Shown here: positions 27,738-33,074 of the stretch, one piece after another
How positions within the stretch are numbered: position 1 is the stretch's first letter
How the letters are laid out: each line of letters starts with the position of its first letter
Source: Thermoplasmatales archaeon
GTDB lineage: Archaea; Thermoplasmatota; Thermoplasmata; Thermoplasmatales; Thermoplasmataceae
Assembly (NCBI GenBank): GCA_026127925.1
Contig: JAJSLM010000012.1
Location: 1-33,074 of the forward strand
Reading direction: 5' to 3'
Length of the DNA stretch: 33,074 bases
Translations under genes and position numbers: made by a program
Notes under the pieces: model-generated
Databases searched by the model: none
What the model was told of the DNA's origin: nothing
The model's input: only the letters and a program-made list of their open reading frames with translations

Positions 27738-28091
27738 CTATCTTGTAACCAACAGTGCAATATCAAGCAAGAATGGGATAATAAAAAGAGATCCAATGTC
27801 GACAATAAAGAGGCAAATCAAAATAAAGGAGATGACAAAAATGATACCGCTAAAGACCAAGTTAATATGTTTATCATAAATTCGGCTTACCGGGATAATG
27901 GTCAATATCAAACCCAAAGACAAAATCATAGCCTCATCATAAATGGTGTACGGCAACGTTGTGGCAAAAGGGGTAGCGATACACGAATAAACAGTAAATA
28001 CAAGTATCATAACCAGAGTAACTATGGAAAGGGTTTTTACAGGATCACGTCTTGTTGATGTTCTGTGATCTAACTGATCGATCATATCCAT
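27738..28091 (-). CDS. Small membrane protein of unknown function
   Basis: A protein of about 117 residues with three to four hydrophobic helices: LSIVTLVMILVFTVYSCI, MILSLGLILTIIPV, and two close segments INLVFSGIIFVISFILICLFI and LFIIPFLLDIALL. Its basic N-terminus DHRTSTRRD suggests a cytoplasmic start. An A-T box at about 28113-28122 puts transcription start near 28092, favouring ATG 28091 over the in-frame ATG 28100. It follows the 478-residue exported protein on the same strand and is the first of three small membrane proteins in this island. No family recognised. An immunity or export partner role is inference. Confidence 0.6.
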   Translation of the reverse strand: MDMIDQLDHRTSTRRDPVKTLSIVTLVMILVFTVYSCIATPFATTLPYTIYDEAMILSLGLILTIIPVSRIYDKHINLVFSGIIFVISFILICLFIVDIGSLFIIPFLLDIALLVTR

Positions 28092-28220
28092 AATTAGCAT
28101 GGAGTATTGCTATTAATATATTTTGATTCTAATCTGTAAACCAAAAACGCAAAAATAAAAATATTGCAAAGAGGGTTGTTAAACAGGATTTTTTACCCTA
28201 CGTTATGATGGAATATTGAC

Positions 28221-29657
28221 TCACCAATACTCCCACTGTGTTGAATAATACACACCAGAAACAAGACCATTGTAGTTCGAGTTAAACCAGCACACAGCGG
28301 AGGATCCAGATGTTGTCCATGATCCGCCTGGATTATAGGTTAATGTGAAATGATCCTGGAGGATTATTTTCTCGCTGTAAAGTTCCGCAGAACCACTTCC
28401 GCAACCCCCATAGAAAGTATTCTTCTGTGTAACTAGATTAATCTTTTCGTTCATGGTTATGGCAGCGGTATTAGTGCTTCCCGTTCCTGCCATCAGTATC
28501 CACATCCCGTTAGACGAGAAACCATTAGAATATGGATTATTCGCACTGGTCTGAGAATAAGAAAATGACCAAAGATAATCCTTCTCGGGTTCAGGTGTAC
28601 CCTGTTCCGAATGCGTTGTGCTTTTAATTGCCATACTTCCAGATGGTAATCGAGGCGGTGTTATCCAACCACTCGTGCCGGTTGGCGAATAGCCTACCGA
28701 AGAATAGAAATAAGAGTTGTAGCTGATATGCGACCATGGGGACCATGGTTCGTTCCACCCATCAAGGTAGGAGTTATAGCTGCTTATGTAGTTTATATTC
28801 GATGTCTCGTTTTCTATGTATCCGTCATTGTTTACAATAGTACTGCTTGGAGTGTAACTTTCCCAACCCATAGTTAATATCGGTATTTTCATTTTCCCTG
28901 GCATCGAATTGACTGGTGTCATCTTGTCTCCGACAAATATACCTAGGTCATAGCGGTAAGTTCCGTTAGAATTGCTCATCCCCATTATCTCGCCAGTTGC
29001 GAATGTCCATCCTTTAAAAGATGGATTACCCTCGACACGTATTATCGGATCACAACTTTCATTAGGAACTGAAGAGAATTTATTAAAAACTGAAGACACC
29101 CTGCCAAGAAAACTTATAGTTGATTCATTTATCGGCGCTAGAGCAAAAAAGTGAGTGTTACCATTTGCAGCGATCATAGTGTTTACACCATTAGGTGGAA
29201 CGCCATGCATGACAAGTACTTTGGAGTGAAATTCGTTTGCCCAGGACACTCCGAGGAGATCGGACACAGCAGAGTTATATCCTCCTGTTAGGACAAATAT
29301 GAGATCCCCTCTTGCAAACAAAGAACCTATTGTGCTTACAAGATTTGTGGCCAAACTCGATGATTGTGAAACATATGGCCAGACAATGAAGATTATAGAA
29401 TCGTTGCCTGTATTCTGCAGGCCCATTACAGAAGTTTGGTGAATGTCAGCGCCGGGAACTCTTAAATCTGTGAGCGTTCTCTGCATACCTGCCGGGCCAA
29501 CAAGATAGAGAGGGATACCGGAAGGATATGAGATCTGAACTGGGAGAGAATCGTGCGAAGAACCTGAACTTTGATTATAATAATGTATGCTAATGAAACC
29601 AGACAGGATGATTACAACTACAAATGATATCCCAAAAAGTCTAGTCTTTTTGCTCAT
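28221..29657 (-). CDS. Large exported or surface protein, family not recognised
   Basis: A 478-residue protein with an N-terminal signal anchor (basic SKKTR, then about 18 hydrophobic residues) and a long Ser, Asn, Tyr, Gly-rich exterior part. Residues 45-200 alternate strands and helices (IPLYLVGPAG, DSIIFIVWPYVS, DLIFVLTGGYNSAVSDLLG, KVLVMHGVPPNG). The last third is beta-rich with aromatic and Gly repeats and two cysteines, ending GVYYSTQWEYW. ATG 29657 is chosen because a TATA box (gatatatattt, 29676-29686) lies 25 bases upstream. A decayed copy of its C-terminus occurs at 30584-30731, so the gene was duplicated. Function unknown; a secreted effector or adhesin is possible. Confidence 0.75.
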   Translation of the reverse strand: MSKKTRLFGISFVVVIILSGFISIHYYNQSSGSSHDSLPVQISYPSGIPLYLVGPAGMQRTLTDLRVPGADIHQTSVMGLQNTGNDSIIFIVWPYVSQSSSLATNLVSTIGSLFARGDLIFVLTGGYNSAVSDLLGVSWANEFHSKVLVMHGVPPNGVNTMIAANGNTHFFALAPINESTISFLGRVSSVFNKFSSVPNESCDPIIRVEGNPSFKGWTFATGEIMGMSNSNGTYRYDLGIFVGDKMTPVNSMPGKMKIPILTMGWESYTPSSTIVNNDGYIENETSNINYISSYNSYLDGWNEPWSPWSHISYNSYFYSSVGYSPTGTSGWITPPRLPSGSMAIKSTTHSEQGTPEPEKDYLWSFSYSQTSANNPYSNGFSSNGMWILMAGTGSTNTAAITMNEKINLVTQKNTFYGGCGSGSAELYSEKIILQDHFTLTYNPGGSWTTSGSSAVCWFNSNYNGLVSGVYYSTQWEYW

Positions 29658-29882
29658 ATTAATCAAATCAAACTCAGATATATATTTGTTGTGCAAAAAA
29701 ATAGCTGCTAATGATCGGGAGAGAAAATGGCAAAGCAAATTGAACTAAAAGGTAAACCAAGAAGGAGAATGATAATCCGCTTGATAAAATGGCAGAGAAT
29801 AAACGCATAAACAAAAAGTGGCTAATGCTCTTGAAGGCTACTATTTATTCTTTCGTTCCTTATAAGTTCGTTCAACCAATTC

Positions 29883-30450: not shown

Positions 30451-30465
30451 GTTAAATGAAGTACA

Positions 30466-30560
30466 TTCATATATATATCGTAGTTTGAGCAACTAGGCAT
30501 TCCAATAAAAAAATGAAAACGTAAAAAATGGTCCGTTCAACCGGACTTCGAAACTTTACC
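30466..30560 (-). repeat. Promoter-terminator block B, matches the block at 32598-32700
   Basis: Reading the + strand, an A-T TATA run is followed by GTTTGAGCAACTAGGCA (30483-30499), an A-rich tract, then GTCCG-ttcaac-CGGAC (30531-30546). The same order with the identical 17-mer occurs at 32598-32700. On the minus strand it reads as the terminator of one gene followed by the promoter of the next. Identity by eye is roughly three quarters over about 80 bases. Confidence 0.75.
30503..30546 (-). terminator. Hairpin terminator behind the decayed gene copy
   Basis: On the minus strand a five-base stem GTCCG/CGGAC is followed by a T-rich tract (complement of 30503-30528). It lies about 40 bases beyond the fossil stop codon at 30584-30586. 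Confidence 0.55.
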
Positions 30561-30583
30561 TTGTACTATTGTAGCCCTTGGAA

Positions 30584-31236: not shown

Positions 31237-31632
31237 TCAACTATTATGTTGTGGAATATGTTTTGATAACATTACCATAAGCACACCTGATACCACTATA
31301 ATAAGAAATACTTGAACTATTACAACTGTAACCATAACCTTAAAACCGTTCAAATAAAGATATACTTCTACCTCTGACAACATTACAAGGAATACAGCTA
31401 GCAGAGTGACGATGTTTATAAAATTTGAAAATCCATATCCTTCCTTCTTTCCACCTAGATAACCTAGCGAATATATAAGCCCGCCCAAGAAAACCACAAT
31501 CAATAAGGCGAATAGAATAATACTTTGTATATTTAAGTCCCTAACTACAATAAGCAGAGACATAAGCATAGAAATACTCGCGAGGGCCCCTATGGTCGTA
31601 TAAATTTTATTAAATTTCTTGGTACTTTTCAT
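31237..31632 (-). CDS. Small four-helix membrane protein paired with the cysteine-tailed precursor
   Basis: A 131-residue protein made almost wholly of four membrane helices: ISMLMSLLIVV, IILFALLIVVFLGGLIYSLGYLGG, NIVTLLAVFLVMLSEVEVYLYL and VMVTVVIVQVFLIIVVSGVLMVML. I chose ATG 31632, which has a Shine-Dalgarno-like AGAGGG (31639-31644) and lies 10 bases beyond the upstream stop. ATG 31653 would overlap that gene by 11 bases. Tight coupling says it works with the exported protein, for example in immunity or export. A frame shifted by one base would extend its C-terminus by about 16 residues. No family recognised. Confidence 0.7.
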   Translation of the reverse strand: MKSTKKFNKIYTTIGALASISMLMSLLIVVRDLNIQSIILFALLIVVFLGGLIYSLGYLGGKKEGYGFSNFINIVTLLAVFLVMLSEVEVYLYLNGFKVMVTVVIVQVFLIIVVSGVLMVMLSKHIPQHNS

Positions 31633-31642
31633 GTTGTTCCCT

Positions 31643-32581
31643 CTAGCAGGCATAATTTATGGCAATCACCTCAACAATAGGTAGTGCATTAACTGCTAAA
31701 AAGAAGAGGGCACAGGGTATACCAAAACCAATGCCCGTAAAGCATGCGACAGCGTCACTAACCAACCCGACGCCTGCAAGTCCCAAGGAAGCGAGTTCTG
31801 CTATACATGCAGCCAGACTACCGTCAACAAGGTATAAGGCAGTGATATCAACTTTTTGTCTTAGAATATGATCTGGCGTAATTTTTATAAAAGAGTTCAA
31901 AGATTGCGCAATGAGCAGGTAATAAATACCAAGTGTTGCTAATGTTTCGTTTCCGCTTACCAGATATTTCACCGAGAGTGAAGTTATACCAGACTGTATG
32001 CCTACGAGCTGCCCATATAAGTTAGAACTAAAATCTGTGATCAGTACGTCCCCCAAGTGCAAATCTTCTGTTAAATATGGCTGAAATGCGATTGCCATAA
32101 TGGATAACCTTCGATCGCTGTGTTGTGGGCCCAGGTTAATTAGCACATCCGTCATTTTCAAGCCAAAGAAGGTATTATTTGCAGTATATGTCAGAGTTTG
32201 CATGGTATAGTTCCCTATTTTTCCGTAGCTATATGACAATCTCACCCCGAACTTATGGTACTCCTTAACCCCAAAAATTTGAATTAATTGATTGGATACT
32301 GACACTTGATTTACACCGTTACTGTTGTTGCTCCCTAGATTGGGGCTACTAAGATGACCCCATTTAGAAACGATGTACTCACCAATAAAATTTGTCTGCC
32401 CAACTTTTACACTTGTGAGTCCATTTCCGTTCTCAATTAAATTTGCTACAGCGTTTTGCCCAACCGGAGAAGCAGGATTTACCCCGAACATCCCACTCGA
32501 AGACACGCTAAAAGCAAATATTGCCATTCCAATGACCACGTAAAGTGCTATACGTTTAAAACCTTTATTTTTTCTACCCAT
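31643..32581 (-). CDS. Exported precursor with a four-cysteine hydrophobic tail, candidate archaeocin
   Basis: A 312-residue protein. Residues 1-30 form a signal peptide (basic GRKNKGFKR, hydrophobic LYVVIGMAIFAFSV, small residues). A polar middle of about 220 residues has many N-x-S/T sites. The last 55 residues are strikingly different: Gly/Ala-rich, hydrophobic, and holding the only four cysteines of the protein, the last being the final residue (AAC, VAC, IPC, YAC). This layout resembles halocin C8 precursors, where a Cys-rich C-terminal peptide is released and the preceding domain gives immunity. No similarity search was possible, so the role is inference. ATG 32581 fits the TATA run at 32600-32620. 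Confidence 0.7.
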   Translation of the reverse strand: MGRKNKGFKRIALYVVIGMAIFAFSVSSSGMFGVNPASPVGQNAVANLIENGNGLTSVKVGQTNFIGEYIVSKWGHLSSPNLGSNNSNGVNQVSVSNQLIQIFGVKEYHKFGVRLSYSYGKIGNYTMQTLTYTANNTFFGLKMTDVLINLGPQHSDRRLSIMAIAFQPYLTEDLHLGDVLITDFSSNLYGQLVGIQSGITSLSVKYLVSGNETLATLGIYYLLIAQSLNSFIKITPDHILRQKVDITALYLVDGSLAACIAELASLGLAGVGLVSDAVACFTGIGFGIPCALFFLAVNALPIVEVIAINYAC

Positions 32582-32597
32582 ATGAATCAAAATGCTT

Positions 32598-32700
32598 TCA
32601 TATATATATATATATATATTGCGGTTTGAGCAACTAGGCAGTCAAATAATAAAAAAATAAAAACGCACAAAAGGGTTCGTTCAACCAGATTCCGTAATTT
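32598..32700 (-). repeat. Promoter-terminator block A between 23S rRNA and the candidate archaeocin gene
   Basis: Contains an alternating A-T TATA run (32600-32619), the 17-mer GTTTGAGCAACTAGGCA (32624-32640) shared exactly with block B, an A-rich tract, and a GGTT-cgttc-AACC stem (32674-32686). On the minus strand the stem plus T-tract ends the rRNA transcript, and the TATA box then starts the precursor gene. Confidence 0.7.
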
Positions 32701-32704
32701 TAGC

Positions 32705-33074
32705 ATGGATTGTAGTTTCGGCCGATTAGTGACTGTGGACTTAATGCCTCGCCGAAGCTTGGCACTTACATCCCAGTTCTATCAAACTCCTCATCTAGGA
32801 GAGGCCTGATAACGATGTCTATTTTCAGGGACGACTTCAAGCTTAGATGCTTTCAGCTTTTATTCGAGTATGACGTGGCTACCCGGCATTGCCTTGCCAG
32901 ACAACCGGTAAACCAGAAGTCACGAACCCCCGTTCCTCTCGTACTAAAGGCTCCTGCCCTTCAGACATCGGACATTCCCACGGAGAAGCAACCCTACTGT
33001 CTCGCGACGTAGTGAACCCATCTCAGGATTCCTTTTAATGGGCGAACAGCCCCACCCTTGGCACCTTGTTCAGC
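32705..33074 (-). rRNA. 23S ribosomal RNA, 3' part
   Basis: The reverse complement reads as the last 370 bases or so of 23S rRNA, including the sarcin-ricin loop core AGTACGAGAGGAAC (32932-32945) and the closing CACTAATCGGCCG near 32719-32731. The gene continues beyond the right edge. The 3' boundary is estimated to within about ten bases. No 5S rRNA or tRNA follows; a protein gene does. Unlinked rRNA genes are known from Thermoplasma and relatives. Confidence 0.95.

Follow-up and report, generated by a model that had tools for sequence, protein, structure and literature searches.

The window (the whole 33,074-nucleotide stretch of DNA that was analyzed, from a Thermoplasmatales archaeon) contains a pair of genes that is probably a module for a peptide bacteriocin (archaeocin). 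It would belong to a polymorphic family of toxins and immunity proteins in Thermoplasmata that switches tails by recombination. We put the probability of this reading at roughly 0.75. The observations behind it are the anatomy of the genes, their conservation, the covariation of the tail with the predicted immunity gene, the boundaries of repeats, the turnover of cassette arrays between syntenic loci, and the occurrence of immunity genes without a toxin. A more specific proposal, which we favor by a small margin over its negation, is that the family represents a kind of archaeal weapon that was previously undescribed. In such a polymorphic peptide bacteriocin, the hydrophobic warhead, closed by disulfides, would be exchanged as a unit with the polytopic membrane protein that confers matching immunity, and the exchange would run through a carrier repeat of ~190 bp in the silent cassette arrays of wall-less acidophiles such as Ferroplasma.

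The precursor gene, P0001 (31643..32581, minus strand, as are all features of the pair), encodes 312 amino acids from its ATG and has three parts: a signal/anchor segment, a carrier, and a C-terminal hydrophobic tail that bears the cysteines. Residues 1-30 (32492..32581) are basic (GRKNKGFKR) and then hydrophobic, resembling a signal or anchor, and were modeled as a helix from residue 4 to 29. The carrier consists of a family-conserved, beta-rich region (residues about 60-168; 32078..32404), placed by alignment and by AF2 models of low to moderate confidence, and a conserved helical core (residues 177-253; 31823..32053), defined by alignment and repeat comparison, whose Ferroplasma counterpart is a ~190-bp repeat. 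The hypervariable tail (residues 254-312; 31646..31822) is the predicted released peptide; alignment and AF2 indicate a helical hairpin (256-281 and 288-311). The only cysteines of P0001 are Cys259 (codon 31805..31807), Cys279 (31745..31747), Cys288 (31718..31720), and Cys312 (31646..31648), all within the last 54 residues, and Cys312 is the final residue. Cys259 and Cys312 would form an outer disulfide and Cys279 and Cys288 an inner one, a nested pairing that would fit the modeled antiparallel hairpin.

The second gene, P0002 (31237..31632), was recognized as an ORF with four to five hydrophobic segments in 131 amino acids and is the predicted immunity gene. Its ATG at 31632 is 10 nt from the TAG stop of P0001 and follows a Shine-Dalgarno-like GAGGG (31639..31643); an alternative start at 31653 would give a 138-aa ORF overlapping the P0001 stop. 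The putatively exported protein with a four-cysteine tail and a coupled membrane gene described in an earlier note on this DNA is thereby confirmed. That note had also proposed structure prediction of the tail: a helical hairpin appeared in the AF2 models of both P0001 and a Ferroplasma copy, which agreed on the signal helix, beta region, and helical core as well, at pLDDT values (50 for P0001 and 67 for the Ferroplasma copy, with its deeper alignment) that are weak in both cases. Comparison of P0001 with the PDB, by sequence and by fold, gave nothing meaningful, and neither P0001 nor P0002 matched Pfam or NCBIfam above cut-off.

The four-cysteine tail and the downstream membrane gene are conserved in relatives. 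Among 200 related genomes, copies 70% identical to that of the window were found in two genomes of another genus (one of them Thermoplasmata archaeon DS4.bin88), and because these keep all four cysteines and the downstream ORF, the combination is more than chance. Several genera of the window's family also have distant copies (20-40% identity); one of these genera, g10, is taken as Ferroplasma. An iterated HMM search found ~50 copies or cassettes in Ferroplasma, including F. acidiphilum Y-T (precursor gene at 1628141-1629121), and in other Thermoplasmata. A profile search added two members from a different family of the class (f15), G146 and G261, in each of which a hydrophobic tail with cysteine is directly followed by a membrane ORF; G261 (L134) shares the four-cysteine plan of P0001, and its membrane ORF, of 130 aa, is 17 nt downstream. 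Weak matches, among them ABC permeases in Thermoplasma, were inspected and dropped as relatives. The genome of the window has a single copy of the precursor family. In one relative, G045 (L034 6587-7999), PKD domains are fused ahead of the carrier, the only Pfam or NCBIfam domain in any relative's precursor; therefore the export or display part itself can be exchanged.

The tails vary extensively, with the exception of the outer cysteines. In the family alignment, a conserved carrier gives way abruptly to unrelated tails past the invariant residues T247 and D253. Across distant relatives, C312 is invariant and C259 is more than 90% conserved; the earlier note would have been contradicted by homologues whose tail cysteines vary, and this is the reverse of what we found. 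The inner pair is lineage-specific: both cysteines are kept in G042 and G029, and the arrangement is similar in G261. The tails of 47 cassettes had 45-75 residues (median 61), 25% Gly+Ala, a mean hydropathy of 1.37, and a mean net charge of –1.7. Exactly two cysteines were present in 39 of the 47, and cysteines lay near both ends of the tail in 41.

A membrane protein gene directly follows nearly every tail, and its type matches that of the tail. An ORF with 2-5 TM segments directly followed 46 of 48 cassettes compared with 9 of 311 control genes from the same loci, where the ORF had to encode 60-165 aa with at least two hydrophobic segments and lie no more than 40 nt away. (A count of 46/47 comes from a cassette set already filtered for the downstream ORF, and 46/48 is the fair figure.) When only intact full-length precursors were counted, all 16 had the ORF. 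The downstream partners in G042 and G029 are 50-56% identical to P0002. Similarity among tails was correlated with similarity among downstream proteins (Mantel r of 0.72, 0 of 2000 permutations), where the cassettes are non-independent, so that permutation counts are not exact probabilities, and linked neighbors partly co-vary by descent. With the window and its close relatives left out, the correlation held when the carrier was controlled for (partial r of 0.69, 0 of 5000), and that between carrier and downstream protein was only 0.12. Linkage alone is insufficient for the covariation of tail and membrane protein because carrier and tail are parts of one gene and so are linked as well.

These properties could also belong to a surface protein, in which the tail hairpin ties the beta domain to the membrane of the producer itself, the downstream protein is an assembly partner, and the variation comes from co-evolving partners or from self/non-self recognition. 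In the models, the tail is two hydrophobic helices of ~25 residues that could equally be a membrane anchor; a small membrane partner that co-varies with the tail would be expected of such a protein, and PKD domains, present in one relative, are typical of surface proteins. The VARTIG loci of Thermococcales are laid out similarly: a secreted protein with a hypervariable C-terminus is followed by matching small membrane proteins, and self/non-self recognition has been proposed for these Ig-domain proteins of more than 1000 aa that are exchanged between strains (PMC8416519). The likeness to VARTIG is one of layout only, as VARTIG has neither cassette arrays nor a toxin-like tail. In the family described here, it is the buried hairpin that is hypervariable and the exposed carrier that is conserved, opposite to the pattern of a recognition protein, and an anchor does not need a cysteine at both ends. 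Together with the orphan cassettes and leftover membrane genes described below, this makes a surface protein improbable, although it is the alternative we take most seriously.

Full-length genes in two genera are accompanied by arrays of orphan cassettes. In g10 (Ferroplasma) and in its sister genus g18, orphan cassettes, which are truncated copies, are found downstream of the full-length gene in the same orientation. Within a genome, the repeats common to full-length genes and orphan cassettes were mostly 140-330 bp, and within a tandem array they were mostly 83-99% identical. The shared DNA ended at the start of the tail (median 1 nt, IQR –11 to +15; a few trivial 100% self-overlaps are included, and the picture is unchanged by them). 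Carriers were more alike within genomes than between them (mean z of 35.8 versus 20.9), whereas for tails the two values hardly differed (4.6 versus 3.6). Orphan cassettes have no N-terminal domain to be anchored, which argues against a surface protein.

The contents of the arrays differ between syntenic loci. G073 and G051 have flanks that are 82-85% identical around different cassettes, and the match stops at the tail boundary. In G059 and G064, flanks that are 94-96% identical surround arrays of 4 kb and 0.8 kb with different contents. Judged from the sequences, recombination via the carrier repeat that deleted or replaced a tail with its immunity gene would give such differences. Tail switching is thus seen in relatives and not for the window's own locus; orphan cassettes were absent from the window's genome when it was searched.

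Orphan cassettes also bear on whether the pair acts inside the cell. A two-gene unit of small proteins with a patchy distribution could be an intracellular toxin-antitoxin or phage-defense pair and not a secreted weapon. P0001 has a signal segment and an N-rich carrier of the extracellular type, the orphan cassettes lack the export part, there is no Pfam or NCBIfam match, and a search of viral contigs found no relatives of the precursor. We consider an intracellular role very unlikely.

The membrane genes persist where the toxin is broken or missing. Precursors are interrupted by a stop in G051, an insertion in G026, and a frameshift in g18. Frame-shifted tails in G039, G064, and G069 still precede a membrane ORF, which is intact in G039 and G069 and truncated in G064. 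In G026, a 2.65-kb insertion with a transposase-like ORF (L038 8238-10891) splits the precursor between the signal segment and the carrier, as judged against a 97% identical F. acidiphilum locus, and both the tail and the membrane ORF are intact. F. acidiphilum also has a stand-alone relative of P0002 (38% identical; L146 3409-3852, minus strand; F. acidiphilum, 46.4 kb) near cytochrome bd genes; no tail was found in the ~300 bp upstream of it, and no counterpart was detected in the sister genome, G026. The predicted role of this gene is protection from the window's peptide. That membrane genes remain beside broken tails or alone is a further point against a surface protein and its assembly partner.

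In the g18 precursors, an oligo-A run (A6 or A8) is changed by +1, which separates the signal segment from the remainder of an otherwise open gene (L044 6277-6480, L045 5600-5760, L092 5180-5480, and L093 6440-6720). The change occurs at several loci in two species and may reflect phase variation, transcript slippage, or a defect that has spread.

P0001 does not appear to belong to the halocin C8 family (TIGR04449). A divergent family member with the carrier as immunity domain would have the same order of parts (signal, carrier, cysteine-bearing C-terminal peptide), its exported precursor would likewise have ~300 aa and end in a hydrophobic peptide, and true C8-like proteins occur in the same archaeal order. 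We rejected membership: the TIGR04449 profile matched Haloferax volcanii, used as a control, and gave no match to P0001 at E<=10 or anywhere in the window's genome; comparison of the tails with C8 sequences gave an hhalign probability of 0.5%. There are two or four cysteines here compared with about 10 in C8, tails are swapped, and a separate membrane gene tracks the tail type. The immunity function would thus reside in a separate gene, and its covariation suggests something other than C8-type immunity from the precursor's own N-terminal part. We regard membership in the halocin C8 family as highly improbable and as the least likely of the alternatives. The proposal in the earlier note of an archaeocin precursor with membrane immunity gains from the covariation, the arrays, and the orphan immunity genes; its likening to halocin C8 survives as an analogy of layout.

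The statement in the same note that nothing of this kind was described in Thermoplasmatales needs qualifying, as above-cutoff TIGR04449 matches exist there as a different family. These C8-like proteins (L108-L111, L113, L114, L116, and L118-L120) have ~205-230 aa, a tail with about ten or more cysteines, and a carrier unrelated to that of the present family. Near-identical C8-like sequences across different genera and families suggest transfer.

By sequence-level criteria, the family, with its orphan cassettes and putative toxin, behaves like a polymorphic toxin system. It has a conserved export and carrier part with an exchangeable C-terminal tail, a directly downstream gene of predicted immunity function that matches the tail type (the 46/48 and Mantel r of 0.72 above), and, in g10 and g18, orphan cassettes that share repeat DNA with the main gene. 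The CDI, Rhs, and MafB toxins likewise combine a conserved part for export with a variable C-terminal tail; the cognate gene comes immediately after the toxin gene, orphan cassettes with a shared repeat are present downstream, and there too immunity outlives a broken toxin. Archaeal polymorphic toxin systems were reportedly surveyed by Makarova et al. 2019 (mBio 10:e00715-19), and the present family may already be among the candidates of that survey. Unlike CDI, Rhs, and MafB, whose warheads are nucleases or other enzymes, the putative warhead here is a hydrophobic, Cys-closed peptide of ~60 residues, the precursor is only ~300 aa, immunity would fall to a polytopic membrane protein, and no delivery machine was seen.

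Pore-forming colicins have a hydrophobic helical hairpin, and their immunity proteins are polytopic proteins of the inner membrane. The present pair is analogous in both respects; it differs in having no sequence relation to colicins, no receptor or translocation domains, and a much smaller active part. To our knowledge, neither the sulfolobicins nor the SSV9 viral toxin B310/C108 is a cassette system. Compared by description only, both resemble the present family in having a signal-bearing toxin, and in SSV9 a membrane protein gene also lies downstream (PMC8628083).

Based on these comparisons, we propose that the N-terminal signal would export the 312-aa precursor, with the conserved beta-plus-helical carrier holding the peptide, and that the C-terminal ~58 residues would be cleaved and released, or presented, as the active part. 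This part would be a hydrophobic, Gly/Ala-rich helical hairpin with its open end closed by Cys259-Cys312 and its turn by Cys279-Cys288. It would kill related cells via membrane damage, probably by a pore-type mechanism, and the polytopic protein in the producer's membrane would neutralize only its own tail type. Orphan tail-immunity cassettes in Ferroplasma and the sister genus bear a ~190-bp copy of the carrier end, and homologous recombination through this repeat would set a new tail and immunity gene behind the export part.

If correct, tens of genes annotated as hypothetical become a predicted system, and the strategy of orphan cassettes, as used by large bacterial polymorphic toxins, would also serve small hydrophobic peptides. 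The family would provide matched sets of toxin/immunity pairs for studying how membrane immunity proteins recognize peptides, and with such cassettes in cultured Ferroplasma, antagonism between archaea could be tested directly in organisms of acid mine drainage. No bacteriocin family named for Thermoplasmatales was found in the accessible open literature. A search of the 'E-plasma' genome with antiSMASH and BACTIBASE found no bacteriocin, although its authors suspected that bacteriocins matter there (PMC10354927).

The position of the window's pair suggests that it is a moved module. The pair is just past the 3' end of the 23S rRNA gene (32706), between two imperfect direct repeats found by repeat search and alignment. 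The proximal copy (32603..32716) is directly upstream of the precursor gene and takes in the final ~10 nt of the 23S rRNA gene together with its 3' flank; the distal copy (30462..30572), 77-83% identical to it, is on the other side of the pair and could mark an insertion boundary. The arrangement resembles the insertion of a 2.1-kb module beside the 23S rRNA gene with duplication of the flank. The 70% identical copies in relatives are away from rRNA genes, and therefore the location of the window's pair, unlike theirs, suggests movement.

A second secreted protein is encoded elsewhere in the window. This 505-aa protein (28221-29738, minus strand) was considered as part of the system and dropped, as it had no relatives in 75 genomes. 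It is followed by a 120-aa multi-helix membrane ORF (27738-28100, minus strand), and the two are perhaps another pair of secreted protein and membrane partner.
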